Positions 5,040 through 19,692 of a stretch of DNA of 47,270 nucleotides are shown piece after piece (positions within the stretch are counted from its first letter, which is position 1; each line of letters opens with the position of its first letter). The notes beneath the pieces are model-generated. The model worked only from the letters and a program-made list of their open reading frames with translations. It had not been told where the DNA came from and ran no database searches. Position numbers and translations under genes: made by a program. Source of the DNA: a virus; the IMG/VR virus record IMGVR_UViG_3300020395_000020, positions 1 through 47,270 of that record; one strand, 5' to 3'.

Positions 5040-5858
5040 ATGATTATATTAACAGGTTCAAAAGGTTTCATTGGTCAGAACTTTCTTAAGTATCTAATAG
5101 AACATTCTGATGAAGAAATCGTTACAGTTGATGAACATGATTGTTGGGATTGGATAGCATACTTTAAGGACTGGGATAAAGTATCCCTTATACTACACCA
5201 AGGAGCGATCTCAGCAACGACAGAAACAGATATAGATAAACTCCATAGGACTAATGTTTGGTTCACTATAGAACTGTTTGAGAGGGCAATAGAGCATCAA
5301 ATAGATGTTAAATTTGCCTCATCAGCATCAGTATATGGTAATACTAGAAAGAGTTTATTCGCAACTACTCCTAATAAAATATCTCCATTAAATTACTACG
5401 CAATTACTAAGTTACAGATTGATTATTACATACAAGACAACTTAGATAAGTTCTCATCTATCCAGAGTTTCAGATACTTTAATGTGTATGGAGAAGGAGA
5501 AGATAAAAAAGGAGATCAAGCAAGTCCTGTACATAAGTTTACACAACAGATAAAAGAAACAGGTAAACTAAAACTGTTTGAAGGATCAGGTAAGTACCTA
5601 AGAGATTTTATTTGGGTTGGAGATATAGTAGAAGTCGTTCTTAATAATGATAAACCATCTGGGATCTATGATCTAGGAACCAGTAGTCCAGTTAGTTTCA
5701 AAACTGTTGGTGAACTTATAGCATTAAAATATAAGGGAGAAATAGAATACATTCCATTCCCAGAACACCTAAAAGGAAAGTATCAATACCTAACTATCGC
5801 AGAGAAGGTATGGGACTATCAATTTATAAACATAGCACAGTATCTTAATCTGTTTTGA
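5040..5858 (+). CDS. hldD: ADP-glyceromanno-heptose 6-epimerase (HldD-like)
   Basis: A 272-residue short-chain dehydrogenase-type epimerase, shorter than the roughly 310 residues of enterobacterial HldD. It would convert ADP-D-glycero-D-manno-heptose to the L-glycero form using NADP. Visible motifs are the Rossmann GSKGFIG (6-12), the HldD-like HQGAISATTE (53-62), SSASVYG (94-100) and the catalytic YAITK (Y120, K124). The RDFIWVGD block (188-195) and IPFPEHLKGKYQ near the C-terminus are strongly HldD-like. It is the only convincing plus-strand gene, and its last 14 bases overlap the convergent oxygenase gene. It complements the kinase and nucleotidyltransferase genes of the neighbouring operon. 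Another sugar-nucleotide epimerase activity is possible but less likely given the HldD-specific segments. Confidence 0.87.
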   Translation: MIILTGSKGFIGQNFLKYLIEHSDEEIVTVDEHDCWDWIAYFKDWDKVSLILHQGAISATTETDIDKLHRTNVWFTIELFERAIEHQIDVKFASSASVYGNTRKSLFATTPNKISPLNYYAITKLQIDYYIQDNLDKFSSIQSFRYFNVYGEGEDKKGDQASPVHKFTQQIKETGKLKLFEGSGKYLRDFIWVGDIVEVVLNNDKPSGIYDLGTSSPVSFKTVGELIALKYKGEIEYIPFPEHLKGKYQYLTIAEKVWDYQFINIAQYLNLF

Positions 5859-6408
5859 ATACTAGATTAAATGCTACAGTCTTTCTAATATTATCTGATT
5901 TATGAGCCGCTACTCCATGTAGCATATACGATGGAAATAATAAAAGTTTACCTCTTTCAGCTTTTATAAATTTTCTATCCCATCCAAAACCAATCTCTCT
6001 CCATTCCCTAGAAACTTCTGTACAACCTTCATTATAAAAGAAAAATCTACCATCACCTTCTTGCTCATCAGTTAAAAAAAGAACTCCAGATAAATGTGAA
6101 GGAATATGATCATGAATCTCTTGATGATAATTTCTACTATAAGTATTCCTCCAAATTTCAGGACAATACACACGGAGATTACTCATATCCAATTCCAATT
6201 CACTAAAAAATATCTCCAATGAAGGTCCAAATAACGGAAAAAATGTATCCATTAAGTCCAATCTCTCAGTTTTAACAGAACAATATTCAGTCCATTCAAA
6301 TTGCTGATCTTCAGTTAATTCTGAATTTTCTATACTCATTAATATCTCTTCTATATTTGGAGGATCTATTAATGAATAAACTTTATGTGTTAAAGTATCT
6401 AACATCAA
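5845..6408 (-). CDS. 2OG-Fe(II) oxygenase at the end of the glycan operon
   Basis: A 187-residue oxygenase. The first ligand region is HQEIHDHIPSHLSGVLFL (H95, H99, D100, H101), with the second at H164 in LFPSYMLHGVAAH and R175 before TVAFNLVF. The spacing and LSGVLFL/LFPS blocks match the phage oxygenase family. It is the last of eight tightly packed genes and overlaps the upstream cupin gene by ATGA (6405-6408). Its 3' end overlaps the convergent hldD by 14 bases. No terminator hairpin is evident between the two. The substrate is unknown; its place in the operon suggests modification of a sugar, sugar nucleotide or glycosylated protein. Confidence 0.8.
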   Translation of the reverse strand: MMLDTLTHKVYSLIDPPNIEEILMSIENSELTEDQQFEWTEYCSVKTERLDLMDTFFPLFGPSLEIFFSELELDMSNLRVYCPEIWRNTYSRNYHQEIHDHIPSHLSGVLFLTDEQEGDGRFFFYNEGCTEVSREWREIGFGWDRKFIKAERGKLLLFPSYMLHGVAAHKSDNIRKTVAFNLVFKTD

Positions 6409-6761
6409 TCTCCCCTGAAGACTCTATGTGAATCCAAATCAAAATGTTGTGTAGAAAACTCAAATAATTCAGAATCTTCAAGAGCAACCATCTGATGTCT
6501 CATCTTCCTTTCAATATGAAATTTATCACCTGGTTCTAAAACTATACTATCAGATAATGAAATGTCATTATCAAAACCATAGAAGAGATGTATCTTACCT
6601 GACTGTAGGTAAAAGGTTTCATCTTTTAATAGATGATAATGCCAAGAACATCTCATACCTTTGGCAAAGAATAAAAGCTTGCCACAATATTCAGAAGTAT
6701 TACATATCCACTTCTCGTAACCCCAACCCTTGGGAACAAATTTTATATCTTCATCATTCAT
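6405..6761 (-). CDS. Small cupin, mannose-6-phosphate-isomerase-like
   Basis: A 118-residue single-domain cupin. It shows GWGYEKW near the start, then the metal motif H41-x-H43 with E48 in WHYHLLKDETFYLQSG, and the second cupin motif EPGDKFHIERKMRHQM, which supplies H89. This resembles the C-terminal domain of type II phosphomannose isomerases and other sugar-binding cupins. It probably binds or isomerises a phosphorylated sugar, but small cupins have many activities. It is coupled by ATGA overlaps on both sides, so it is made together with the hydroxylases flanking it. If the heptose reading of the operon is right, it could help supply or modify the sugar precursor; this is inference. Confidence 0.75.
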   Translation of the reverse strand: MNDEDIKFVPKGWGYEKWICNTSEYCGKLLFFAKGMRCSWHYHLLKDETFYLQSGKIHLFYGFDNDISLSDSIVLEPGDKFHIERKMRHQMVALEDSELFEFSTQHFDLDSHRVFRGD

Positions 6762-7369
6762 ACAAAATTAGGTCCTAATCCCCATCCAACTAATGCCTTT
6801 CTACACCCACTAGTAACTGGTGTTACCCTATGTAGTAAGAATGAAGGGAAAACTAACATATCTCCACTACTAAGTTTAAAACTATGTTGAGTGTCTCTAC
6901 TTATCATAAATTCAAATTCACCACCCTCATAATAATCTTTAGAAAGACCTATTGAAAATGAAACCTTTCTCTGCAATCCTTCTAATTGTCTAGGAGAAAT
7001 ATCCATATGCCAATCATAATGTCCTTTATATTCTGAATCATATCTACTATATTGAAGTCCTTCCCATCCACGAATATTATATCCCCAAAGATCATCATTA
7101 ACATCTCTAACAATTCTTGAAATCGCATCATAAATTGGAGTAATTAAATCTCCGTAATCAGTATCTACTAACCAACATATTTCTGAACGTCTAATATCAC
7201 TACCTTCACCACCAACTGTAGAAGCCTGTTCTAAATCTTTTCTACTAACATACTCATCAACACGTTCTAATATATCATCACCAATCAATTTTGGAAGATT
7301 AGCAAACCAAGTTGTATGAAACTCTGGTACAGATATATTATTAACATCTTTATAAAAATAATCAGGCAT
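6758..7369 (-). CDS. Prolyl-4-hydroxylase-type 2OG-Fe(II) dioxygenase
   Basis: A 203-residue dioxygenase of the P4H/PKHD type, different from the other phage oxygenases here. It has a classic HxD motif in HYDWHMDIS (H121, D123), GLSKDYYEGGEFEF as the next strands, then SGDMLVFPSFLLHRVTPVTSGCR with H180 and R190, ending KALVGWGLGPNF. These are the iron and 2-oxoglutarate ligands of the family. Members hydroxylate prolyl residues in proteins or act on small molecules. The start overlaps the upstream HAD gene stop as TAATG. Its co-transcription with glycosylation genes suggests hydroxylation that creates or accompanies a sugar attachment site. The glycine-rich virion proteins are one possible target, but no collagen-like GXY tract is present. 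Confidence 0.83.
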   Translation of the reverse strand: MPDYFYKDVNNISVPEFHTTWFANLPKLIGDDILERVDEYVSRKDLEQASTVGGEGSDIRRSEICWLVDTDYGDLITPIYDAISRIVRDVNDDLWGYNIRGWEGLQYSRYDSEYKGHYDWHMDISPRQLEGLQRKVSFSIGLSKDYYEGGEFEFMISRDTQHSFKLSSGDMLVFPSFLLHRVTPVTSGCRKALVGWGLGPNFV

Positions 7370-7716
7370 TATACTCCATGACTTTCAAAGAATGAATCAC
7401 ACTGCCACCCCTTATCATCTATAAAATAATCTGCATGTGGTTTACCCATAATTAATTCATGATATTTAACTCCCCACTCATCTAATTGATCTCTTGTAAG
7501 ATCAAATAAAACTCCTTCTGCTTTTACAGAAGCAATAGAATGTGGTTCTTCTGAGAACCTACCCATCGCTCTAGCAGTAAAGTAAATTATATAATGACCT
7601 TCATCATAAAGTTTATTTAGTACCTCGATTCTATCTTTCCACGGTTCTGCTTTATGGTAATCCCTACCAACAGTTGGTGTACAAATAGTACCATCAATGT
7701 CTATACAGTATCTCAT
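7369..7716 (-). CDS. Small HAD-superfamily phosphatase
   Basis: A 115-residue capless HAD protein. It shows the nucleophile motif DIDGT (D6, D8), motif II YFTAR (T47), and the Lys and acidic pair of motifs III/IV in GKPHADYFIDDKG (K92, D100, D101). All catalytic residues are present. The start has a perfect GGAGG six bases upstream and lies 23 bases inside the kinase gene. Related short HAD proteins accompany capsule or sugar-phosphate genes. By position between the heptose kinase and the rest of the operon it could serve the GmhB step (heptose-1,7-bisphosphate to heptose-1-phosphate). However, it is much shorter than GmhB and lacks that family's zinc-binding cysteines, so the assignment is only contextual. 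Confidence 0.8.
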   Translation of the reverse strand: MRYCIDIDGTICTPTVGRDYHKAEPWKDRIEVLNKLYDEGHYIIYFTARAMGRFSEEPHSIASVKAEGVLFDLTRDQLDEWGVKYHELIMGKPHADYFIDDKGWQCDSFFESHGV

Positions 7717-8437
7717 GAATGTCCTCCTGTTGTAAAACGTAAGTTCCTAATTGCTGAACAGCAACTGCTGCTGCTCTATTACCTAACATTAATGCCTGTT
7801 CTATATCATTATATGTTAGATAACCATATACTAAACCAGCAAGAAAAGTATCTCCAGCACCGACAACATCATAAACATTGACTTTCTCTGCTGGATATAA
7901 TGTATTATTGTAAATACATCCTTGAGATCCCTTTGTTACTATTAGATTGTCTATCTTATAATCATCTAATTTCTCATATTCTACATCATTTATCTTAATA
8001 AAGCAATTGGGTTTGTTAGGAAGTATAGACTTCTTACTATCAATAAACACAGGACAAGATGCACTCTCCACAATCTCAAATATCTTTTCTGTAGATAGAT
8101 ACCCTTTATTATAATCTGATATCACAATAGCATCAAAACTATTTGTTGCTACAGGAACTAATAAAGGTTTTACTCTCTCTTCATTATCAACTCTAAGAAT
8201 ATGTTGATTTGATTTCTCATCAATAAATCTAGTCTTTACAATCTTCTCAGGATTAGTTAAGAATGTAATCTCCATATTAAATGACTGAAGATTTAAGCAT
8301 ACATTAGCTGCCATACCAGGTTTAGTTTGTATCTTAGCATAGTCTAAAACAGGTACAGGAGCTTCTGGACTTATCCTAGTACATCTACCATAGATATATT
8401 CATCCTCACAACTATCACCCAGTAACAATACTTTCAT
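7694..8437 (-). CDS. hldA: Heptose-7-phosphate kinase (HldE kinase domain, separate protein)
   Basis: A 247-residue PfkB-family sugar kinase matching the N-terminal half of HldE. It has the phosphate/substrate signature GDSCEDEYIYGRCTRISPEAP (7-27, compare the usual RISPEAPVPV), KPGMAANVCLN (39-49) and the catalytic VVGAGDTFLAG (191-201, base D196). It would phosphorylate D-glycero-beta-D-manno-heptose-7-phosphate at C1. It is notably shorter than the usual domain of about 315 residues, so loops are trimmed. I start at the ATG at 8437, where homology begins; the longer frame adds 13 unrelated residues. It overlaps the upstream nucleotidyltransferase gene by 23 bases. In enterobacteria the two activities are fused in the opposite order. 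Confidence 0.87.
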   Translation of the reverse strand: MKVLLLGDSCEDEYIYGRCTRISPEAPVPVLDYAKIQTKPGMAANVCLNLQSFNMEITFLTNPEKIVKTRFIDEKSNQHILRVDNEERVKPLLVPVATNSFDAIVISDYNKGYLSTEKIFEIVESASCPVFIDSKKSILPNKPNCFIKINDVEYEKLDDYKIDNLIVTKGSQGCIYNNTLYPAEKVNVYDVVGAGDTFLAGLVYGYLTYNDIEQALMLGNRAAAVAVQQLGTYVLQQEDIHEILYRH

Positions 8438-8831
8438 TAATCTTTTTGATGACATTACTGCTGGCATATCCACCAACTCTAGGAAGATGTCTTACCTCAC
8501 CAGCATTTTCCCAACCAACTACATCACCATCCCTCCAATCATCACCAAGTAATAATATATCGGGTTGATATAGTTCAATTAAATCTTCTAATTCTTTCCT
8601 ACTACCAAACGTGTGAACAACATCAATATACTTGATTGCTTCAAGCATAGTAACCCTATAATAAAGATCATTTATAGGGCGATGCTCACCTTTATCAGTA
8701 CGAATCTTCTCATCCGTATCCGTAGCAACTATTACTTTGTCTCCTAGAGATCTAGCAACCTTGAATAATTCTATGTGACCTGGATGAAGAATATCGAATG
8801 TGCCATTACACCAAACAATATCATTCTGCAT
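8415..8831 (-). CDS. hldC: Heptose-1-phosphate nucleotidyltransferase (HldE C-domain, separate protein)
   Basis: A 138-residue cytidylyltransferase-fold enzyme matching the C-terminal domain of HldE. It shows CNGTFDILHPGHIELF (8-23, catalytic HPGH at 16-19), HRPINDLYYRVTMLEA, PDILLLGDDW and the terminal ASSNVIKKI, which corresponds to the STTNIIKKI of HldE. It would join heptose-1-phosphate with ATP to give ADP-heptose and pyrophosphate. It has the full length of this domain. The start overlaps the carbamoyltransferase gene by 11 bases, and the end overlaps the kinase gene by 23. Glycerol-phosphate or other cytidylyltransferases share the fold, but the adjacent kinase and the nearby epimerase make heptose the best reading. 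Confidence 0.88.
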   Translation of the reverse strand: MQNDIVWCNGTFDILHPGHIELFKVARSLGDKVIVATDTDEKIRTDKGEHRPINDLYYRVTMLEAIKYIDVVHTFGSRKELEDLIELYQPDILLLGDDWRDGDVVGWENAGEVRHLPRVGGYASSNVIKKINESIVTG

Positions 8832-10617
8832 TAGGAATCTTTACTAACTTTTGTATCTCAGGAAGATACATATATTCAATCTTACTCTTATATAAAGTAT
8901 GAATAGCATCATGAATTGTTTCTACTAATGGTTCTCCACCAAGATTAAAAGAAGTATTGAAAAGTATTGGAACACCACTTAAATTTTCAAAAGAATCTAT
9001 AAGATTGTAATAATGTTTGTTCTCATCTTTAGTGAGAGTTTGAATCCTACATGTACCATCAACATGAATGACTGATGGAATCTTTTCTTGAACACCAGGT
9101 AAACATTCAACAGCATACATCATATGAGGTGAATCTTCTCTACCCTGAAGATCAAACCATTCATTAACTTTTTCCTTCTTAATAGAACAAGCAAAAGGTC
9201 TAAAGAACTCTCTATGCTTTACCTCATTAACAAGATCCTTACCATTCTTAATAGTAGGATCAAATAATATAGAACGATTACCAAGTGCTCTAGGACCACC
9301 TTCAGACCTTCCTTGGAAGATAGTAACTATCTCACCACTACGAATTAATTTAGCAACATCATCATAAGAAGTATCAACAACATCCAAGTGATCATATTCA
9401 TCCAAATAAGTATCTGGATCATATTGTGGACCATAATAAATTGAAGTTACTCTTGGTGGTGGACTAGTTATTTTTTCTTCTTGTGCCCAAACTTTTCTAA
9501 CAGCACCTATAGAAGTTCCACCATCATGTGATATTGGTTCAACATAGATATTTAAATCTGGAAAATGTTTTAAATACTGATAATTAGATACACAATTCAA
9601 TCCATAACCACCAGAAATAACTATATTCTTTTCACCAGTTAGATCATGAGCCTTTTGAATCAACTTTATCATAGCATTTTCAGTATCTTTCTGAATCTTA
9701 TATGCTAAATCTTTTTGCACTTGCGTATATTCCTTACACCCACCTTCAAAAAGTCTAGGTGAAGATACTCCATATCTTTCTTTTTCTACTGGTGGTTTTG
9801 TTTTATCTTTTTCATGTAATGCAATAATATTTTCAGCATCCTTAGTCATAATAGGATATCTTTGAATATTAATATGAGAATTATTGGGATAATTTGGAAT
9901 AAAAAATTCTCTATTAACCCAACCATCTCTAAACAAATCTGGAAGATCAGGATTCTCCTTTCCATATGGAGATAGACCCATAGTTTTTCCAGCATCAATA
10001 GCATCAAATCCACAATATTCAGTTATTGCTTCATATGCTTTTGTAAGACCTGGATATTCTGTAATGAATAATTCCTTATTTTCACCAACATTCTTAACAC
10101 CAACAGAATCAGAAGTACCAAGATGCTTATAAACAACATCAAATTTTAAATCAGGATCATAAGCTGCTTTAAAAATAGTTTCAAATTCAAAGATAGTATC
10201 ATCAGTCAACTCACATCCCAAGAAACTTCCTGCACCATCAACACTTAAACAAGCAGCAGATTCAAATCCAGAGTTTAAAAAAGCACAACTAGCATGAACC
10301 TCATGATGTATTGTATCAATAAAAGTAATTCTATGTCCAGAATCCATCTTAGTCTGCTTTGTAAGCTTCCTTATCCAACCCTGATATAAATCCTCACCAG
10401 TCCAATCACACTTAGGACCATGCCTATGTGTATGAGTTACAACTAAATGATCTATATGATCTACATATTCAAAAGCTTTTAATAAACCTAACAATGGTGT
10501 CCCATCTCTTTTAAATCTAGATAAACGTTCTTCTTCTAGATAAAATACAATCTCACCATCAACCATCAATGTGGTACTAGAATTATGACCACGAGAACAT
10601 CCAAGAATAATACTCAT
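8821..10617 (-). CDS. Carbamoyltransferase, NodU/CmcH family
   Basis: A 598-residue, full-length carbamoyltransferase. The N-terminal Kae1-like domain opens with ILGCSRGHNSSTTLM and contains the conserved HHEVHA (104-109), SVDGAG (125-130), SGGYGLNCVSN (335-345) and HDGGTSIGA (364-372). The C-terminal YrdC-like domain starts near residue 380 and carries FQGRSEGGPRALGNRSI (434-450) and FFRPFACSI. The family makes carbamoyl-adenylate from carbamoyl phosphate and ATP and transfers the carbamoyl group to a hydroxyl, usually on a sugar. It follows the glycosyltransferase gene by six bases and overlaps the nucleotidyltransferase gene. Carbamoylated heptose is known in Pseudomonas lipopolysaccharide core, which fits this context; the actual acceptor is unknown. 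Confidence 0.92.
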   Translation of the reverse strand: MSIILGCSRGHNSSTTLMVDGEIVFYLEEERLSRFKRDGTPLLGLLKAFEYVDHIDHLVVTHTHRHGPKCDWTGEDLYQGWIRKLTKQTKMDSGHRITFIDTIHHEVHASCAFLNSGFESAACLSVDGAGSFLGCELTDDTIFEFETIFKAAYDPDLKFDVVYKHLGTSDSVGVKNVGENKELFITEYPGLTKAYEAITEYCGFDAIDAGKTMGLSPYGKENPDLPDLFRDGWVNREFFIPNYPNNSHINIQRYPIMTKDAENIIALHEKDKTKPPVEKERYGVSSPRLFEGGCKEYTQVQKDLAYKIQKDTENAMIKLIQKAHDLTGEKNIVISGGYGLNCVSNYQYLKHFPDLNIYVEPISHDGGTSIGAVRKVWAQEEKITSPPPRVTSIYYGPQYDPDTYLDEYDHLDVVDTSYDDVAKLIRSGEIVTIFQGRSEGGPRALGNRSILFDPTIKNGKDLVNEVKHREFFRPFACSIKKEKVNEWFDLQGREDSPHMMYAVECLPGVQEKIPSVIHVDGTCRIQTLTKDENKHYYNLIDSFENLSGVPILFNTSFNLGGEPLVETIHDAIHTLYKSKIEYMYLPEIQKLVKIPNAE

Positions 10618-10623
10618 AATACC

Positions 10624-11886
10624 TTACGATTTAGAATTAACTTCAAGTTCCAACAACTGATCAATTGGTTTCTTCTTTGAAGATGGCTTTAATGGTTGTT
10701 GGAAACCATTATATTTAACACCCTTACTACTACCAGAAGATAATGGTTTCACTGCTAAAGGAGTAGTTTTAGAAGGTTCTAATACTTCTGTCTTAGATGA
10801 TGTTGATTTTGATTTAAATTTTACTGGTTCTTTAGTACTAGGTTTAAGTTCTTTAATATTAGATTTAAATCCTCCTCCTGCTCCTGGTTTAGGTGTAGCA
10901 TATGCTTTACTTTGATTTAAAGTATTTTTTGGGGGAGAAGTTAGTCCCATTGTTTTATTATTTGTAGTGCTTACACCTATCTTATCTTTGATTGATTTTG
11001 CAATCTTCTTAACAACACTACTATCAAAACACATTAAAGCTTCATTATTCCTTTCAGTAAATAAATCATATGTCAATCTTATAGGACTATATCTTCTCTT
11101 CCCTTCAGCATTATCAATAATAGTAAATTTCTTACTTTCTGGATATGAAATGTTTTCAGGATAAGTTGACCCTACCACAACAGTAGCAGGTTTACCCATA
11201 GCATGAGCAAAATGTTGTCCCACACTATCACAACCTAGAAAATAATCAGCAGCATTAATTACTCCTGCCCATTTATTAAGATCCATTCCAGTAGGACAAG
11301 CAACACCAAGTCCTTCCCATCCTGGAATTTCTATCTCAGTCATTAAAATAACAGAATAATTTTTTCTTAACTCTTCTATTACTTGAATAACATTTGAAAC
11401 TTCAAAACTTCTACCAGTAGGATCAAAAATGAATTGTCCTTCCTTCTTACTTCCCTGACCAAATGGTTGAAAAACTACTGTTTTATCTTTACCTAAAGTT
11501 TGCTTAACTTCTGCTACTATATTATGTCCAGTTATCTGCTCTTCTTTACTAAGAGATAGGTTAATAGTACCAAGATCTCTAGCATCATCAAGATCATTGA
11601 TTTCAATATCAAATGCTTGAATGAGATTACATTTTTGATTAAAGTATTGATTAACTCTATATGGTTCTGGTGAAATTATTTTTCTGTCAGTTAACATATT
11701 TTCAAATAGTCCTTTATGAACCATTTGATATACCTTATCTCTAAGTTTCTCATTTAAAAAGTATAATTCACCCCAAGATTCAGCAACGATTATAAAATCG
11801 TCATCCTTCTCAGCATATTTTTCTAACGCTGGCATGGAACAAAGTACACGTCCACTACCACCATTAATAAAGAAAGCTTTTTTCAT
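10624..11886 (-). CDS. GT9-like (heptosyltransferase-type) glycosyltransferase with disordered tail
   Basis: A 420-residue protein. Residues 1-305 look like a GT-B glycosyltransferase of the GT9/heptosyltransferase kind. They open with FFINGGSGRVLCSMPALEKY, carry QPFGQGSKK near 140, and have the donor-site block ADYFLGCDSVGQHFAHAMGK (213-232, D220 and H225) followed by PATVVVG and PENISYP. Residues from about 305 to the end are Ser, Thr, Lys and Pro rich and probably unstructured, an unusual addition whose role is unknown. It is the first gene of the glycan operon, with the sigma70-type promoter 25 bases upstream of its start. An ADP-heptose donor is suggested by the nearby heptose genes, not proven by motifs. 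Other GT9-like enzymes also act in protein glycosylation. Confidence 0.78.
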   Translation of the reverse strand: MKKAFFINGGSGRVLCSMPALEKYAEKDDDFIIVAESWGELYFLNEKLRDKVYQMVHKGLFENMLTDRKIISPEPYRVNQYFNQKCNLIQAFDIEINDLDDARDLGTINLSLSKEEQITGHNIVAEVKQTLGKDKTVVFQPFGQGSKKEGQFIFDPTGRSFEVSNVIQVIEELRKNYSVILMTEIEIPGWEGLGVACPTGMDLNKWAGVINAADYFLGCDSVGQHFAHAMGKPATVVVGSTYPENISYPESKKFTIIDNAEGKRRYSPIRLTYDLFTERNNEALMCFDSSVVKKIAKSIKDKIGVSTTNNKTMGLTSPPKNTLNQSKAYATPKPGAGGGFKSNIKELKPSTKEPVKFKSKSTSSKTEVLEPSKTTPLAVKPLSSGSSKGVKYNGFQQPLKPSSKKKPIDQLLELEVNSKS

Positions 11887-12047: not shown

Positions 12048-13184
12048 TTACTTCCACTGAACACAAACCATTCCAAATCTACCCATGTCTCCACAATGGT
12101 TCTGACAACCACTAGAAGAACTTGAAGTCCATCCACCAGCACCAGGAACTTGTAGATATCCACTAGTATATCTCCATCCACCACCACAACATGAGTTTGA
12201 TGACCATCCCTGTACACATTGTGAAGTATTTTCAAATCCATATATTGCAGGATGACAGTTACAACCATAATTATTTGTATGGTGACACCAACCACCCCAT
12301 ATTCCACGAATACCATAAATTAAGTTCTCTGGAGTTAGTTTTGTGTGTGTAGGAGTACCCGATCCAGTCAAATCTTGTGCTGCTGGATCTATATTTAAAG
12401 TACCAGCAAAGATTGAACCAGCCATTGCAGGGAAGTTTCCACTATATCCACCACTATTTTTACATATTGATGCACCATACTGACAAACACGAACTTCTCT
12501 GTAACTACCATTATGACATGGTTGATAGCAAGGATTCTCTCCACCTAATCTAGTTCCCCAATACTCACCCTGTGATCCATCACCACCTTGAGCACAAACA
12601 TAGCATAATCCACATCCCTGAACATATGTTGGACATCCTGGAATTCTATTAGAACCAGATTGAGAACCACCCCAACAACAATAAGCACAACCAGCACAAA
12701 CTGTATAAGAATGTCCAGCAGTTACTGGAATAATAACTGAAAGATAAGCACCAGTAGATCCAAAGTGTGTCCATCCACAACATCTAGATGCATGGTTTGC
12801 TCCACCACCAGAACCCCACAATTGAAATCTAGCTCTAGTTACACCACCTGGAACAACCCAAGTACAGTTTTTACCACAATTACCACTCTCAGTAGTATCA
12901 CAGACCTTCATATTACCAGTCCAATCTGCACCTTCATAGATACAAGTCCACTTAGTGGTATCCATTGGACAGCAGTTCATATAACGTTCTAAGTTACATC
13001 CAGAACCATCCATACATAACCACTTACAAGCAGCAGTCCATGCTTCAACAGGTGCTTCTTCATAAGTACCAGCACCTCCACCACCAGCATCTGCCTTCAA
13101 ATCAAATAATTCTTTTTGCTTGGCAGCAATCTGTTTCTTAAGAGATGACTGCTCATTAAGAGCACTATAAACTAATACATCCAT
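12048..13184 (-). CDS. Cysteine-rich, glycine-rich virion-type protein A
   Basis: A 378-residue protein with about 32 cysteines. An N-terminal coiled-coil stretch (about residues 8-32, SSLKKQIAAKQKELFDLKAD) is followed by GGGGAG. The core resembles the glycine-rich beta domain of the neighbouring giant proteins (CTWVVPGGVTRARFQLWGSG, then HSYTVCAGCAYCC). Many positions that are hydrophobic or Gly in those proteins are Cys here. The end is VPGAGGW, then CGDMGRFGMVCVQW. It is paralogous to the protein at 13944-15050. The cysteines could form disulfides once virions leave the reducing cytoplasm, or bind metal. It is the last gene of the structural block, 20 bases before the terminator. A receptor-contact or fibre-tip role is inferred. 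Confidence 0.75.
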   Translation of the reverse strand: MDVLVYSALNEQSSLKKQIAAKQKELFDLKADAGGGGAGTYEEAPVEAWTAACKWLCMDGSGCNLERYMNCCPMDTTKWTCIYEGADWTGNMKVCDTTESGNCGKNCTWVVPGGVTRARFQLWGSGGGANHASRCCGWTHFGSTGAYLSVIIPVTAGHSYTVCAGCAYCCWGGSQSGSNRIPGCPTYVQGCGLCYVCAQGGDGSQGEYWGTRLGGENPCYQPCHNGSYREVRVCQYGASICKNSGGYSGNFPAMAGSIFAGTLNIDPAAQDLTGSGTPTHTKLTPENLIYGIRGIWGGWCHHTNNYGCNCHPAIYGFENTSQCVQGWSSNSCCGGGWRYTSGYLQVPGAGGWTSSSSSGCQNHCGDMGRFGMVCVQWK

Positions 13185-13190
13185 GTGTAA

Positions 13191-13904
13191 TTAACCCTCC
13201 GCAGTTTCGCCAGGAAATGTCAAAACAGGTCCACCACCTAAAGCATAACTATGTGGTAAAGGCAAATTCTTAAATGCTTTCATAATATCAGCATCTATCT
13301 TTGGAATATCTGGAGGAGTTGGTTGAGTAGTATACTTCCAAGTCTTATACTTAGGATTAGCATTTATGTAAGAAGTTATTCCTACAAGATAGGCATCTAT
13401 CTTAGCATTAACATCTGCTCCAAAATCATATTGAGAATAATAAGTCTCTACATAAGACTTTCTTCTCTTCGCCTCTGCCTGTGCATTATTACGTTGTTCT
13501 TTCAATATTTGTTCTACAATCCACTTACCTTGTGATTCATCCCATCTTGGGGTCATATACACATCTTCTAAGTCTGGATTATCCAACCTATTGTATACAT
13601 CACCATTATCCATAGTTTCTTGAACATAATTTTCTGTCCAAACAAAACCTTCTTCATCAACATGATGTCTAGCGAGATATGCTATAGGTAACTGCGAAGA
13701 TTCAGTAGCCTTAATAGTTTTCTTTCTATCAGGAGAAGGATACTCGGTCAAATCAAAATTAATGATATAACCTTCACCATCTATCTCCACATCAAACTCA
13801 TCTGGTCCTATGTAAGTATAGGTAGCAGTTTTAGTAGTCGAAATACCAGCGACATAATTTTCCTCTGGCAGAGCGTAAGTAAATGATTGTGTAATTGTTG
13901 CCAT
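13191..13904 (-). CDS. Structural-block protein, possible fibre-assembly chaperone
   Basis: A 237-residue protein without a firm family match. The N-terminal half is beta-rich (TYTYIGPDEFDVEIDGEGYI). The C-terminal half is helical with many charged residues (EQILKEQRNNAQAEAKRRKS) and ends with YKTWKYTTQPTPPDIP. An acidic/basic helix with RN, a later aromatic segment and a Pro-rich end faintly recalls phage tail-fibre assembly chaperones, so I offer that as a low-confidence idea. A TATAAATA promoter lies 20 bases before the start, and the next gene, a Cys-rich protein, follows after six bases. Being between two Cys-rich fibre-type genes, it may act on them. Confidence 0.6.
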   Translation of the reverse strand: MATITQSFTYALPEENYVAGISTTKTATYTYIGPDEFDVEIDGEGYIINFDLTEYPSPDRKKTIKATESSQLPIAYLARHHVDEEGFVWTENYVQETMDNGDVYNRLDNPDLEDVYMTPRWDESQGKWIVEQILKEQRNNAQAEAKRRKSYVETYYSQYDFGADVNAKIDAYLVGITSYINANPKYKTWKYTTQPTPPDIPKIDADIMKAFKNLPLPHSYALGGGPVLTFPGETAEG

Positions 13905-13924
13905 TGTATCAGTCTACTTTTAGT

Positions 13925-13932
13925 TATTTATA
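13925..13932 (-). promoter_or_regulatory. Late promoter TATAAATA
   Basis: Perfect minus-strand TATAAATA, 20 bases upstream of the start at 13904. It gives a very short leader without an evident Shine-Dalgarno sequence. Confidence 0.65.
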
Positions 13933-13943
13933 AGGTGTACAAA

Positions 13944-15050
13944 TTAATTATAAGAAACACAAACCATGCCCATTCTACCTGCGTCACCACAAGTACAGTT
14001 ACCACCACAGGAAGATGTCATCCATCCACCAGCACCAGGCATCGGTCTAATACCAGTTTGCCAAGCACTCTGGCAGAATCCACCACAGTTATTACATACC
14101 CAACATCCACCTCTACCACAGCAATATTGTGGATAACCATACATTGTAGAAATCCATCCCAACGCTGGCATGTAATTATCAACACTTATATATGACCACA
14201 TTCCTCTGTGTCCATATACACCACTACCACCAGTAGAAGTTCCATAGAAACATACACAACGAGAAACCCAAGATGGATGAGCACCTGAACAATGTCCTTC
14301 TGGATATCCTTGTCCTTGTGTTTCATACTCAGCACATACCCAAGCACCACTTCTACAAATACATCCACCAAGATATCTACAATAACAGAACTGTCCTATC
14401 TTAACTCCATACTGATCTGCTCTATCCTCAATCTCTTTGAACATACAACCAGACCATCCACCTTCAACACAGAAGTTACTTAGGTTAGATCCCTGAACAT
14501 AAGATGATTCTCCTCTTTGTTGGTTATATCCATCTCCATAAGCATAGCAACAATAAGCACAACCAGCACATAATGTATAGGAAGAACCAGAAGAAACTGG
14601 AATAATAACAGAAGCATAAGCACCTGAAGATCCTGAAGGAGCGAATCCACAACACCTAGACTCATTACTACCTCCACCAGCACCCCAAATTTGGAATCTA
14701 GCACAAGTTGTTCCTGAAGGAACAGTCCAAGTACAGTTAGAACCACAACGATAATATCCTGTAGTATCACAAACTTTAAATCCACTAGTAAATGCTGTAC
14801 CACCATCAGGACATAATGGACATGCACCCATAGTAGTAGGTATCAAACACCACTGGTTGGCGTTAAGCATGTATCCTGCTTCAGCAACCTTTCTTAATAC
14901 ATCACACTGTGTTTGAAGTGGTACACCAGCACCACCACCACCTCCACCGCCACCAGCAGAGGTAACTTGATCGGTTAGATCAGCAAGTTCTTGTCTAAGT
15001 TCTTGATTTACTTCTTGTAAAGCATTATAGGTTAAAACATCAATTGCCAT
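13944..15050 (-). CDS. Cysteine-rich, glycine-rich virion-type protein B
   Basis: A 368-residue paralogue of the protein at 12048-13184, with about 34 cysteines. It has the same architecture: VLTYNALQE start, a coiled coil (residues 10-32, NQELRQELADLTDQV), a run of eight Gly, then the core with CTWTVPSGTTCARFQIWGAG and SSYTLCAGCAYCC, and the end MPGAGGW, CGDAGRMGMVCVSYN. Shared positions include the KVCDTTG block. The middle part differs greatly between the paralogues, as expected for a variable recognition surface. The start overlaps the preceding small gene by TAATG. Disulfide-stabilised fibre or adhesin is the best guess; metal binding by the paired CC motifs is an alternative. Confidence 0.75.
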   Translation of the reverse strand: MAIDVLTYNALQEVNQELRQELADLTDQVTSAGGGGGGGGAGVPLQTQCDVLRKVAEAGYMLNANQWCLIPTTMGACPLCPDGGTAFTSGFKVCDTTGYYRCGSNCTWTVPSGTTCARFQIWGAGGGSNESRCCGFAPSGSSGAYASVIIPVSSGSSYTLCAGCAYCCYAYGDGYNQQRGESSYVQGSNLSNFCVEGGWSGCMFKEIEDRADQYGVKIGQFCYCRYLGGCICRSGAWVCAEYETQGQGYPEGHCSGAHPSWVSRCVCFYGTSTGGSGVYGHRGMWSYISVDNYMPALGWISTMYGYPQYCCGRGGCWVCNNCGGFCQSAWQTGIRPMPGAGGWMTSSCGGNCTCGDAGRMGMVCVSYN

Positions 15051-15714: not shown

Positions 15715-18700
15715 TTAACTAGTTGCAGTAAAGAAAGTAGGGGCACTAACAGATTCAAATGCTGTTTTGATTCCAGCATCAGCACGTCTTACTGCATCAT
15801 ATAATGCTCCAGATGTTTGTACACCAACGAATGTTCTAACTGCTGCCTGTGTTGGAACCTTCTCATTACTATTTTGAGAAAGTGTTCCATCAGTTGAGAA
15901 CTCATTAATTTGAGCACCTAACTGAGCACCAATTGAACCCAATTGTAGTGAAGTTAGACCAGATAGATCGAACGCACTAGCATTCAATGTTGCGGAACCA
16001 GTTGCCTGGTTAACACGGAAGTACTTACCAACACGGAAGTTACCATCTTGGTCAGTTGAAACATAGAATACACGTCCAGGGAACCCTTCAGTAATTTCTT
16101 GTGACTGAATTGGGTCTACCGTAGGTACATCAGGCCAGTTAGTTGTAACTGTTCCACCTGTACCGACTTGTAAGAAGTCATGTCCTGTTAGTCTTGCTTG
16201 ACTATAGAGATAACGAATCTTAATGTTCTGTTCATCAAAACATTTATTAGGTTTCTCTTCAACAAGAGTTAACACAGTAATACCAGTAGCATCTGTTGAT
16301 AGTCCAACTACTTTAACAAACTCATTATCAATCTTATAGAAATCATTCTGAGTAAATGGAGTAGGAGTTACAACTCTGATATCAGTATCAGTAGAAGTAC
16401 AATCCTTCCAAAGCTCAACACTGTTAGTTAACAAACTAGTATTACCAATAGAAACTATTTGTTCTCCAATAGTATATGCTGCTGCAGCACCAGCACCATC
16501 TTGGTTTCTTGATACAGTCATCTGAGTTGCTGAGTTAAGACTTACAATCTTCATCAACTCTTTGGTTGGACTCAATACATATTCTCCAGGGTTAAATCCA
16601 GAGATTGAGTTAACGTTAATAGTAGTATCACCAGAAGCAACTGGAGTCAAGAATGTAGCACTACCAGTTCCAACTGGATAATGAACTAAAGCTTTAGTTC
16701 CTCCAGTATGAGCAGCACCAGCTGTTGACCACTGTGCTCTCTCAACAGTTAATGAACCACGTCCATCAGCACCAGTCTGACTTACACCATCAATCACGAA
16801 TGTAAACGGATCAGCACCAGTAATTGTAGAGTTATTAAATCCACCATTACCAGATCCAGTAACAAATTCTATACTACCATTAGCAGTAAGAGTTGGTGAA
16901 GTACTTAATCCAGAAGAAACAATCGTAAATCCTGATTGACCTCTGTTAGCAGTTTGTCCATTAGGATGTAAAGTAGCAGTTGTACCATTTGTCAAACCTG
17001 TTATAGTTTCACTCTGAACAAATCCAGTACCAACACCAGCAGGTCCAGCAGTAATCAAAGAATAATAGATAAGAGTTTTATCACCACCCTGAATAGAATT
17101 AATATATCCTATTGACTCTGAAGTATTACCTCTGATTCTTTCGCCAACAGCAAAGTCATTAGGATCAGTACCATCACCACCTATTACTTTAGAGTCTTTA
17201 TCAAACTCCAACATCAATCCTTCAATTTGACCTGCTCTATGCTTCTCTTGTTGGTTAAATCCAGAACTTACAATCGCATAGTTACCCCAAGAACTGTTTC
17301 CAGCAAGAGATCTTATCCTACCACCACGAGTAGCACAATAAGAAACGTGACAATAATAAGTGAATGATGAAACTAATTCAGCAGCAGCGTTATTAGTAAT
17401 CCAGAATCCTACACCATCATCATGTATCTGTGTGAAGGAGTCCATAACAATTGATTTGTTAGATGGTGTAGGACCATCATCAGTAAACTGTCTATGAACA
17501 AGACCATCTACAATTGCTCCAACACCGCCTTTTGATTGACAAGAACAGTTAGAAATATATGGAGATTTAGTGATCGGAGTCTCAGGGTTCATCTGAACAA
17601 AGACACCTTTAATAGTTGCGTTATTAAGGTCTTCTGGAGATGCAGTGTATGTTAATGTTCCAGAAGAAACTGTTTGATTCTTATCAACTTCTAATTGTGT
17701 ATCACTAATAAAGTTAATAACTTTAGTTCCTTCAGCAACACCAGTACCAGTTACACTAGTTCCAACCAAATCAGGGAAGAATCCAGAACCAGTTACAATA
17801 GTATCTGCGATTTGACCTGTATTTTGTAGTACCTGTCCTGCTTTAACAAAACCAGTCATACCTTCCATTAGAAGGTCTTTCAACATAGTTTTGTCACTCA
17901 AGAAGAACATTACAGATTCAGCATTTGATCTCTGTTCTATATTTGTTATAGCAATATCATTACCAAGGTTCTCCCATGTATCTGATGTTGTCCATAATCC
18001 ACCAGTCATTGGTCTTATATGAACAGTCTTCTCATCATAACTTGCTTCTAAAATACTAGCAGTCTTTGTTCCAGCACCATTAGAAATGGTAGTACCATAA
18101 GAAATATAAGGTGTTGTCTTAGAAAGTCCACTACCAGTAGCAGAAACATATTGGTGGGTATTACTAATACTAATTGCTTCACCAGGACTCTTATTAACGT
18201 TTATAGTAACAGTGTTAGATGTTACTGCTATAACAGTAAGAGCTTTATCATAAGCATAGTCAGCACCACTAGGAGTGTTTGCTCCAGTTGCTCTTGGATA
18301 TGCTTTCTGAGCAGCAGAACCAGTAGCACCATTGAAATTACAACTGAATACTATTGATTCTTCAGCAAGTTTAACTTTATCATTAACATTAAGTGTATGA
18401 GTACCTATAGTTAATAATAAATTACCATTAGCAGTATTATAGTTAGCATTAGTTACTGTAAATGTTGGTTGTGGTACACTTGCTAAAGTAACTACTTGAT
18501 AGTGTGCATCACCAGATTGAGGTTTAATTCTAGATGTTCTTAGGTTATCACCAACAATTGATACTTCAGTTGGAACTACAATAGGTAATGACTCCTCATA
18601 TGTACCAGCCTTTACATAGATTGTTGCTGGTCCAGTAGCAATACCACAAGCATGTTTAAGACTAGCAAATGATCTACTAATATTTGAACCATCATTACTA

Positions 18701-19692
18701 TCAGATCCTTCCTCAGTTACATAATAAACTGGATGTGTAACATTACTGGTTTCCCAATTAGGTAATCCACTACTGTTTACTGTTAATACTTTACCATCTG
18801 TTCCAGTTGGTAGTCTAGTAGCACCAGTAGTATAGTAAACCAAGTCACCAGATGTTGTCATCACATTGGTGTCAGCACCTTCAATCAAAACGTTCCAGTA
18901 ATTACCTGGACCATCAGTTGAAGGGTCTTGATTTAAGTTGGTGAGAGCAGTAACAATACCAACATAACTATTACTTAATCGTTTAACAACTTCACCTGGT
19001 AGATAGGTAGTGTTAGCATCCCAGTTACCTTTCCACTCAAAACCTTTAGATACTAAACTCCACTTAGCAGTGCTAGAACTTGGAGCAACGTTAGTACTAG
19101 TTGAAATCGCAACGTATGTAAATCCACCATAGATTACAACATTACCTTGAGTGTAATCATTACCAGCACCCCAAGTACCTACAACATTAAATCCTGTTGT
19201 TAGGATGTCCCAATCAGCAGCTAGATTATATGCTGGTGGTTTGTTTGTATGATCACTAGTAGCAACATAAGTATAACCACCGTATGCTACAACGTCACCA
19301 ACTTGATATGCTGTTGCCGCATCCCAACTATCTTCATAATTAAATGATGAAATATATTCTTCTAATTGAGTTGTATTAGTAGTATCAAGTATAGTTGTAG
19401 AGAAACCTACCTTTACTCTATACTGACTATTACCATACTTAATAATATCATTAATCTTATAATAACCACCAGATACCCATTCACCTTTACTTGCTATACT
19501 CTCCGTATGTAAGGACCATTTAGAAGAATCATCATTATAATAAAGATTCTCGCTAGTTGTGGAAGTATGGTTCTGAGTACAAACATATGTATTCGCACCA
19601 AACTTTACTATATCATCAATTACATAAGCAGTACTGGCAGTCCAGTTGCCTTTCCAAGAAAATTTTAGCCTCCCAAGTCTAAATTCAGCCAT
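15715..19692 (-). CDS. Giant fibre protein with carbohydrate-binding-like repeats and beta-helix
   Basis: A 1325-residue protein. Residues about 11-270 hold five repeats of roughly 48-55 residues with the pattern W-x-Y-x(2)-D-x-V-x-Y-G-x-x-Y, for example GNWTASTAYVIDDIVKFGAN and SWDAATAYQVGDVVAYGG. They resemble chitin-binding family 5/12 modules. Next, a DUF1565-like right-handed beta-helix start is seen at YYVTEEGSDSNDGSNISR and ATIYVKAGTYEE. A long beta-rich shaft follows. Near the end VFYVSTDQDGNFRVG matches the end of the beta-helix protein at 43573-46050, followed by LTSLQLGSIGAQLGAQINEF. AGGAG stands before the ATG. It probably forms a virion fibre or spike that binds surface glycans; no catalytic residues could be assigned. 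Confidence 0.8.
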   Translation of the reverse strand: MAEFRLGRLKFSWKGNWTASTAYVIDDIVKFGANTYVCTQNHTSTTSENLYYNDDSSKWSLHTESIASKGEWVSGGYYKINDIIKYGNSQYRVKVGFSTTILDTTNTTQLEEYISSFNYEDSWDAATAYQVGDVVAYGGYTYVATSDHTNKPPAYNLAADWDILTTGFNVVGTWGAGNDYTQGNVVIYGGFTYVAISTSTNVAPSSSTAKWSLVSKGFEWKGNWDANTTYLPGEVVKRLSNSYVGIVTALTNLNQDPSTDGPGNYWNVLIEGADTNVMTTSGDLVYYTTGATRLPTGTDGKVLTVNSSGLPNWETSNVTHPVYYVTEEGSDSNDGSNISRSFASLKHACGIATGPATIYVKAGTYEESLPIVVPTEVSIVGDNLRTSRIKPQSGDAHYQVVTLASVPQPTFTVTNANYNTANGNLLLTIGTHTLNVNDKVKLAEESIVFSCNFNGATGSAAQKAYPRATGANTPSGADYAYDKALTVIAVTSNTVTINVNKSPGEAISISNTHQYVSATGSGLSKTTPYISYGTTISNGAGTKTASILEASYDEKTVHIRPMTGGLWTTSDTWENLGNDIAITNIEQRSNAESVMFFLSDKTMLKDLLMEGMTGFVKAGQVLQNTGQIADTIVTGSGFFPDLVGTSVTGTGVAEGTKVINFISDTQLEVDKNQTVSSGTLTYTASPEDLNNATIKGVFVQMNPETPITKSPYISNCSCQSKGGVGAIVDGLVHRQFTDDGPTPSNKSIVMDSFTQIHDDGVGFWITNNAAAELVSSFTYYCHVSYCATRGGRIRSLAGNSSWGNYAIVSSGFNQQEKHRAGQIEGLMLEFDKDSKVIGGDGTDPNDFAVGERIRGNTSESIGYINSIQGGDKTLIYYSLITAGPAGVGTGFVQSETITGLTNGTTATLHPNGQTANRGQSGFTIVSSGLSTSPTLTANGSIEFVTGSGNGGFNNSTITGADPFTFVIDGVSQTGADGRGSLTVERAQWSTAGAAHTGGTKALVHYPVGTGSATFLTPVASGDTTINVNSISGFNPGEYVLSPTKELMKIVSLNSATQMTVSRNQDGAGAAAAYTIGEQIVSIGNTSLLTNSVELWKDCTSTDTDIRVVTPTPFTQNDFYKIDNEFVKVVGLSTDATGITVLTLVEEKPNKCFDEQNIKIRYLYSQARLTGHDFLQVGTGGTVTTNWPDVPTVDPIQSQEITEGFPGRVFYVSTDQDGNFRVGKYFRVNQATGSATLNASAFDLSGLTSLQLGSIGAQLGAQINEFSTDGTLSQNSNEKVPTQAAVRTFVGVQTSGALYDAVRRADAGIKTAFESVSAPTFFTATS

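Follow-up and report, generated by a model that had tools for sequence, protein, structure and literature searches.

The 47,270-base virus record IMGVR_UViG_3300020395_000020 (its whole length is here called the window), a fragment of a T4-like cyanophage genome close to P-SSM2, carries at positions 5040-11886 a cassette of genes that probably specifies a full viral route from host sedoheptulose 7-phosphate (S7P) to ADP-L-glycero-D-manno-heptose, together with enzymes using the ADP-heptose. Based on gene fusions, genomic linkage and a phylogenetic profile we propose that a small cupin protein encoded in this cassette is likely to be an S7P isomerase which replaces GmhA, in which case the phage need not rely on the GmhA of its host. 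The cassette itself is real, its conservation across viral loci being beyond chance, and every gene that the original prediction had listed for this region was recovered in place as an open reading frame (ORF). Homology and gene order also give good support to the nucleoside-diphosphate-heptose pathway which that prediction had read from the genes. Its further statement that only GmhA is missing stands as far as the SIS-type enzyme is concerned but is probably mistaken in substance, since the cassette offers in the cupin a strong candidate for this isomerization.

In the proposed pathway the cupin would isomerize S7P to D-glycero-D-manno-heptose 7-phosphate, the HldA-like kinase would phosphorylate C1, the short HAD protein would take off the 7-phosphate in place of GmhB, and the HldC-like and HldD-like proteins would respectively add AMP and epimerize C6, the roles of the kinase, nucleotidyltransferase and epimerase being assigned by homology. 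The GT9-fold enzyme would then transfer the heptose, which is probably carbamoylated by the carbamoyltransferase. The most likely acceptor would be a virion tail protein, with the Cys/Gly-rich neighbors of the cassette as first candidates, and this is the weakest step of the scheme. The first reaction is the seven-carbon counterpart of the conversion of fructose 6-phosphate to mannose 6-phosphate. The kinase, nucleotidyltransferase and epimerase are homologous to those of the Gram-negative ADP-heptose pathway (GmhA, HldE, GmhB, HldD), and the same route is expected; the cassette differs in having the cupin for GmhA and an EcbF/BcbF-type HAD for GmhB, and in that two short proteins, not one, carry the kinase and the nucleotidyltransferase.

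That viruses carry ADP-heptose genes is in itself no novelty, because cyanophage lipopolysaccharide (LPS) or heptose genes and working viral enzymes have already been reported; it is the reading of the cupin as an isomerase that is new. Sullivan 2010 reported clusters of LPS genes from cyanophages with large genomes and the co-occurrence of T4-GC 260, 265, 266, 304, 305, 307 and 308 in P-SSM2, S-SM2 and S-SSM7, and its relevant passages left open whether these genes function or are 'stuffer DNA' (PMC3037559). The 'LPS' genes T4-GC 302-308 of P-SSM2 and P-SSM5 are homologous GT9, carbamoyltransferase, HldC, HldA, HAD, cupin and HldD genes, which share the order of the cassette and are likewise enclosed by tail genes; in P-SSM2, 304 corresponds to HldC, 305 to the kinase, 307 to the cupin and 308 to the epimerase, and the order is identical to that of the window save for two inner 2-oxoglutarate (2OG)-Fe(II) oxygenase genes. 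Those same passages assign no function to the cupin (307), and the HAD (306) is entered as an isomerase in the P-SSM2 record. Viral heptose enzymes make ADP-heptose in vitro (Tang 2024, Science, according to excerpts of the commentaries PMC11461863 and PMC11573728), and the first of these excerpts states that the phosphatase is absent in viruses; the present proposal differs in taking the HAD as phosphatase and the cupin as isomerase. Heptose genes are also named in the announcement of SynMITS9220M01 (PMC7378029).

Linkage of the cupin to heptose genes in viruses and bacteria

Eighty viral loci were fetched with HldC, and genes were counted only over those loci with enough flank (72, 42 or 50). 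HldA is present at all 72 loci with at least 900 bases downstream. Within 5.5 kb of HldC the cupin and HldD are each found at 41 of the 42 loci with at least 4 kb downstream, and the HAD at 38; within 7 kb the carbamoyltransferase and GT9 each occur at 44 of the 50 loci with at least 6 kb upstream. In an annotated phage collection HldC was matched in 90 records, 32 of them from cyanophages or labeled 'Marine virus', and all of these 32, except one 4-kb fragment, also contain the cupin. At four loci (L060, L070, L071 and L142) HldC is directly preceded by a gene that contains the beginning of a tryptophan-halogenase-like flavoprotein; the S-SSM7 record calls it tryptophan halogenase.

The cupin occurs without an HldC match in four records, namely Bellamy (two records), SynMITS9220M01 and AG-345-E15. 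In Bellamy the cupin gene sits between those of a GHMP kinase and an NTP transferase, for which NCBIfam gives as best matches HddA (278.8 bits over the full length; cut-off 600) and HddC (62.5 bits; cut-off 300), respectively. No HldC match and no GmhA were found in Bellamy, and its cluster contains the HAD. SynMITS9220M01 likewise shows an HddA-cupin-nucleotidyltransferase block with a strong HddA. Each of the two heptose routes, to ADP- and to GDP-heptose, has its own kinase and nucleotidyltransferase, with the isomerase and phosphatase in common, and the genes common to the ADP- and GDP-type phage clusters are the cupin and the HAD.

When genome contigs were scanned with the cupin alignment, 32 loci were obtained, none of them titled cyanobacterium; some marine contigs of metagenome-assembled genomes (MAGs) with a phage-like cluster (L083-L085, L089, L113) were left out of the cellular evidence because they may be viral. 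At nine of the 32 loci (L095, L096, L098, L099, L101 and L104-L107) the cupin and an HldA-type kinase form one protein, with the cupin at the N-terminus, and each time an HldC-like ORF comes next. Eight of these loci are titled Patescibacteria, Peregrinibacteria or Peribacter/Peribacteria and one only 'bacterium'; a tenth fusion is found in genome G126. The kinase part of the L095 protein reaches 314.6 bits against TIGR02198 (cut-off 345), and its cupin domain exceeds the cut-off of Pfam Lyx_isomer (PF07385; 22.9 against 20.8). At L104 and L105 the protein following the cupin-kinase is a GmhB-like domain fused to an HldC-like one, so that two genes with four domains would cover the four steps from S7P to ADP-heptose. 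A GmhB-type phosphatase scores over the cut-off in nine of the ten fused genomes, in eight of them beside the cupin-kinase gene. Nine of the ten show no GmhA apart from, at most, weak matches in ORFs of 598-646 residues, which is the size of GlmS.

A phylogenetic profile was drawn up over 145 genomes from the class of the fused genome G015, with a kinase threshold of 1e-20. Twelve of these have a kinase match, and in nine it exceeds 200 bits: three are fused, the kinase frame also holding the cupin (G014, G015, G126), and six unfused (G137, G153, G163, G205, G209, G213). In all of the unfused six a GmhA scoring 193-228 bits shares the contig of the kinase and lies no more than about 1.1 kb from it; four lack a cupin match, and G153 and G205 have a weaker one elsewhere (75 and 83 bits). 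The fused G014 and G126 show only weak GmhA matches inside ORFs of 598 and 644 residues. Three fused genomes without strong GmhA against six unfused genomes with it give a Fisher p = 0.012 for this draw, the fairest of the comparisons, although it is centered on G015 and the cupin scan had already brought up G014 and G015; without the center the comparison is two against six (p = 1/28). Larger tables, which are biased by selection, give p = 0.0017 or 0.033, depending on the cupin cut-off, and p = 1.2e-4 for ten fused against six unfused genomes. The count leaves out three genomes with a weak kinase (76-94 bits) and no cupin; a GmhA adjoins the kinase in G141 (125 bits), lies on a different contig in G222 (188 bits) and is missing in G148. 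A set of 35 genomes was also chosen, made up of ten from the draw and 25 from among the 30 genomes to which the cupin loci belong (all except G001, G002, G004, G005 and G029). The kinase and a stand-alone cupin occur without a TIGR00441 match in G010, G013, G016 and G018, some of which show weak PF13580 matches in ORFs of 356-604 residues; G030 has a weak cupin and a weak GmhA. In the Campylobacterales G024-G027 (L108-L111) an HldC-like ORF adjoins the cupin; the two of these ORFs that were scored reach 83 and 76 bits.

Sequence and fold of the cupin and the short HAD protein

The cupin lies slightly under the Pfam Cupin_2 cut-off of 27.2 bits (Table 1). As a single sequence it has as top matches in the PDB the D-lyxose isomerase 2y0o (0.0064) and the L-ribose isomerases 5avp (0.026) and 3ww1 (0.056). 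A profile built from ten phage cupins retrieves 5avp (5.5e-4), an unnamed cupin 3d82 (0.0014), 3ww1 (0.004) and 2y0o (0.0055), followed lower down by the D-lyxose/D-mannose isomerase 7nzo (0.021) and the mannose-6-phosphate isomerase 7zvm (0.027) amid CooA regulators and other cupins. No match of the window cupin to the D-lyxose isomerase family (PF07385) was listed. Its structural model (pLDDT 83) adopts the fold of the cupin superfamily, with Foldseek E-values against cupins down to 4.9e-8, and D-lyxose isomerase and small phosphomannose isomerases are also among the fold matches. Across 42 phage and cellular cupins the residues E16, Y25, G27, K28, H43, K46, D47, E48, F50, Q53, G55, G78, H89, E101, S103 and D110 are invariant and H41 is present in 41; H41, H43, E48 and H89 are presumably the metal ligands. 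The phage cupins resemble the D-lyxose and L-ribose isomerases and the small archaeal phosphomannose isomerases in fold, His/Glu site pattern and proposed reaction type, but differ from them in their low sequence similarity and in a signature of their own (KGWG.EKW, YCGK, FEFST). A search of one open-access literature collection found no relevant paper on a cupin as GmhA substitute.

The fold differs from the SIS fold, and the cupin does not belong to the GmhA family (SIS fold, TIGR00441/PF13580). The original prediction had suggested looking for a gmhA in the rest of the genome, and no SIS-type match (PF13580) was found in the window; nor was there one in P-SSM2, P-SSM5 or any of the 50 viral records searched out of the 80 loci. 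Ten more named phages were likewise negative with the single exception of SynMITS9220M01. The idea of an SIS-type GmhA elsewhere in the phage was set aside on the strength of P-SSM2, P-SSM5 and the nine negative phages.

The NCBIfam matches of the short HAD protein are confined to the EcbF/BcbF and BT0820 models, and a match to the GmhB family (HAD-IIIA, TIGR01656/TIGR00213) was not found for it; TIGR01656 was also not found in any of 12 named phages. Its profile best matches 9iqw in the PDB (4.7e-17), with 1xpj at 2.5e-10. The label GmhA in the P-SSM2 record was set aside in view of these nearest structures and of the HAD motifs D6-x-D8-x-T10, GKP and DDK, and 'HAD phosphatase', as the original prediction had it, describes the protein better than the public 'phosphoheptose isomerase'. 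In the phage records that were opened, genes so labeled at or near the cupin encode proteins of 102-115 residues which correspond to this HAD (P-SSM2, S-CAM3, S-T4, Sf-CH5, Bellamy, P-TIM68, S-SM2 twice, S-CAM1, S-SSM7 and Sf-FS3), as identified by sequence in P-SSM2, Bellamy and both S-SM2 copies and by size and place in the others; the exception is the 168-residue protein of SynMITS9220M01, which is GmhA-like. Many of the named phage records (L001, L135-L142, L144) apparently mislabel the HAD in this manner, and the cupin as 'cysteine dioxygenase' or 'nucleotidyltransferase'. We consider the short HAD a likely substitute for GmhB.

The HldD-, HldA- and HldC-like proteins and the HAD score under their curated NCBIfam cut-offs, yet for the heptose enzymes the expected families rank best (Table 1). 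The kinase, at 260 residues against a 315-position model, is shortened; across 25 relatives its GAGDT motif is invariant and a PEAPVPV-type stretch is kept.

Alternatives for the cupin

Several observations weigh against the proposed isomerase and pathway. The likeness of the cupin to isomerases is weak by score, though ketol-isomerases recur, and KdgF and many unrelated cupins give the best fold Z. The fold was accordingly rejected as support for an isomerase on its own, as VIA-align places KdgF and other cupins above the isomerases. The failure of HldA, HldC, HldD and HAD to reach curated cut-offs also counts here. At 12 viral loci (L026-L034, L036, L038, L039) HldC and HldA are followed by a glutaredoxin, without HAD, cupin and HldD there; 11 of these lie outside the 42 counted because their contigs or stretches end early, and if they are taken as misses the cupin is found at 41 of 53. 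SynMITS9220M01 has, in addition to its cupin block, a GmhA-like SIS protein (47 bits for TIGR00441, 18 for PF13580) adjoining a second HddA-like kinase about 5 kb away (L143:12577-14027), which can be read as two isomerases or as a cupin that is not an isomerase. Among the cellular genomes, a 90-bit SIS protein is encoded on a separate contig of the fused G015, G019 and G028 combine a cupin (106 and 91 bits) with a strong GmhA (196 and 220), G153 and G205 have a GmhA in addition to their weaker cupin, and in G006 a cupin and a kinase of low score (78 bits) are accompanied by a pair of SIS proteins (120 and 63 bits). Absences in these genomes are soft, because most are MAGs whose completeness is not told.

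In a rival explanation a host GmhA, or another host isomerase, supplies the first step and the phage the later ones, and the cupin does something else, for instance modifying heptose as an epimerase or sensing a metabolite. Cupins are diverse in function and the fold match is unspecific, and seven of the 35 chosen genomes (G003, G008, G009, G024-G027) have the cupin with no kinase at 1e-20 and no GmhA match, a point that also weighs against the proposed isomerase. This explanation nevertheless seems unlikely to us, as it does not sit well with the fusion of the cupin to the kinase in genomes mostly lacking GmhA, nor with its retention in both the ADP- and GDP-heptose branches, whose common steps are those of the isomerase and phosphatase. 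Furthermore, a review states that heptose is absent from cyanobacterial LPS (PMC4390846). A search of PMC2211374 for gmhA, rfaE and KDO gave no match. The original prediction had placed this argument in marine Synechococcus, a setting that is not supported: in the phage collection the window is closest to Marine virus AG-345-F15 and to two T4-like phages of Prochlorococcus, P-SSM5 and P-SSM2, and these two, the nearest named isolates, were obtained on Prochlorococcus.

A role of the cupin as phosphomannose (mannose-6-phosphate) isomerase, supplying the synthesis of GDP-mannose and not of heptose, is suggested by the small cupin phosphomannose isomerases 7zvm and 7zvy among its profile and fold matches and by a GMD-like dehydratase in the Bellamy cluster. 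We regard this as quite improbable given the fusion of the cupin to a heptose kinase and its pairing with HldC or HddA, which are foreign to GDP-mannose synthesis. The notion of functionless passenger genes, raised as 'stuffer DNA' in the passages of Sullivan 2010 cited above, is hardly credible in light of the open frames, the conserved catalytic stretches and a gene order kept over diverged phages. An S7P isomerase remains our preferred reading of the cupin. A bolder version, in which the cupin founds a new S7P isomerase family that displaced GmhA in cyanophages, Patescibacteria-like bacteria and some other lineages, the HAD replaces GmhB so that these viruses make ADP-L,D-heptose unaided, and virus-made carbamoylated heptose is placed on Cys/Gly-rich tail proteins, is put forward tentatively, and we would not expect all of it to hold.

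The putative glycosyltransferase and its possible acceptor

Table 1. Genes of the cassette and its neighbors in the window
Feature	Positions	Strand	Evidence
HldD-like ADP-glycero-manno-heptose 6-epimerase	5040..5858	+	TIGR02197 208.1 bits (cut-off 274.6; first of 12 NCBIfam matches); best PDB match 1eq2 (HldD), 6.3e-44
2OG-Fe(II) oxygenase, variable cassette part	5845..6408	-	PF13759 2.5e-14; no P-SSM2 counterpart there
Cupin, 118 residues, proposed S7P isomerase in place of GmhA	6405..6761	-	Cupin_2 26.4 bits
2OG-Fe(II) oxygenase, variable cassette part	6758..7369	-	PF13640 1.2e-13; no P-SSM2 counterpart there
Short HAD phosphatase, EcbF/BcbF type, 115 residues, proposed GmhB substitute	7369..7716	-	TIGR01689 (EcbF/BcbF-like) 33 bits (cut-off 162)
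HldA-like heptose-7-phosphate kinase (PfkB), shortened	7694..8476	-	TIGR02198 154.5 bits (curated 345; first of 20 matches)
HldC-like heptose-1-phosphate adenylyltransferase	8415..8831	-	TIGR02199 106.4 bits (curated 181.5; first of 11 matches)
Carbamoyltransferase, NodU type	8821..10617	-	PF16861 2.1e-58; PF02543 2.1e-21; NodU model 143 bits (cut-off 1000)
GT9-fold glycosyltransferase, putative heptosyltransferase	10624..11886	-	PF01075 20.9 bits (cut-off 22); fold matches
Cys/Gly-rich protein 1, candidate acceptor	12048..13184	-	phrog_35878 (function unknown); adjoins GT9
Cys/Gly-rich protein 2, candidate acceptor	13944..15050	-	phrog_35878; weak phrog_863 tail fiber assembly, 21 bits
Tail fiber protein near cassette	15715..19692	-	phrog_9851 tail fiber protein, 1484 bits

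The model of the GT9 protein (pLDDT 76.8, with residues 312-398 under 50) has WaaF (1psw), a Veillonella GT9 (3tov) and WaaC (2h1h/2gt1) as its top Foldseek matches (E 1.2e-8 to 3.5e-7, probability 1.00), which gives it the GT9 heptosyltransferase fold, though the TM scores (0.37-0.56) and rmsd (7-10 Å) are modest; TibC (4rap) was also matched. Searching the PDB with a profile of the GT9 alignment brought up no useful match. A role as heptosyltransferase is plausible because the model matches WaaF, WaaC and TibC. The fold search was discarded as a means of separating protein- from LPS-heptosyltransferases, as all three match and the match to TibC is no better than those to WaaF and WaaC. The TibC/AAH bacterial autotransporter heptosyltransferases have a related fold and suggest a protein acceptor by analogy; TibC was crystallized with ADP-D,D-heptose (PMC4358343), whereas the cassette has HldD. 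GT9-like relatives with about 28% identity are found in 31 Vibrio phage records (OZ195742 and similar, at about 9490-10197), those listed being about 78 kb long.

The unit lies among tail or neck genes in the window, P-SSM2, S-CAM1, S-CAM3, S-SSM7 and Sf-FS3, all of which have GT9 and all but S-CAM3 Cys/Gly-rich matches. In S-SM2, S-T4, Sf-CH5, Bellamy, P-TIM68 and SynMITS9220M01 its surroundings are clusters of sugar enzymes that include one to several glycosyltransferases. The latter context, together with the designation of such clusters as LPS genes by Sullivan 2010 (PMC3037559), speaks for transfer of the heptose onto host LPS or another surface glycan during infection. This would be compatible with the cupin as isomerase and is a possibility we take seriously without favoring it, the tail and neck context of the GT9-bearing phages pointing the other way. 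Because of this neighborhood of the GT9-type cassette virion tail proteins are favored, and we lean towards decoration of the virion rather than of the host surface.

Matches to Cys/Gly-rich protein 2 occur in 18 phage records, and GT9 is present in 17 of these; the 18th is another contig of the single-cell virus AG-345-E02, itself among the 17. The match spans 25-32% of the protein in S-CAM1, S-SSM7, S-SSM6a and Sf-FS3, and none was found in six of 23 cyanophage or marine GT9 records (four of S-CAM3, AG-345-O18 and AG-345-P14). On account of this co-occurrence with GT9 the Cys/Gly-rich proteins should be regarded as first candidates for the acceptor, and as that alone. No known function could be assigned to them, as they match phrog_35878, a family of unknown function. 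The two paralogues (12048-15050) flank a 237-residue protein, and three diverged weak matches occur in a row at L052, L060, L070 and L071. Besides the two 2OG-Fe(II) oxygenase genes in Table 1 the window has three more (184-783, 780-1418 and 1753-2334), and these five differ among relatives.

If the cupin is indeed an S7P isomerase, a seemingly incomplete viral pathway becomes self-sufficient, and functions are thereby proposed for two protein families misnamed 'cysteine dioxygenase' and 'phosphoheptose isomerase' in phage records. The same assignment offers a plausible heptose route for Patescibacteria-like genomes without a detected GmhA. Should the virions carry heptose, the role of sugar-decorated tails in ocean phages would be opened up.

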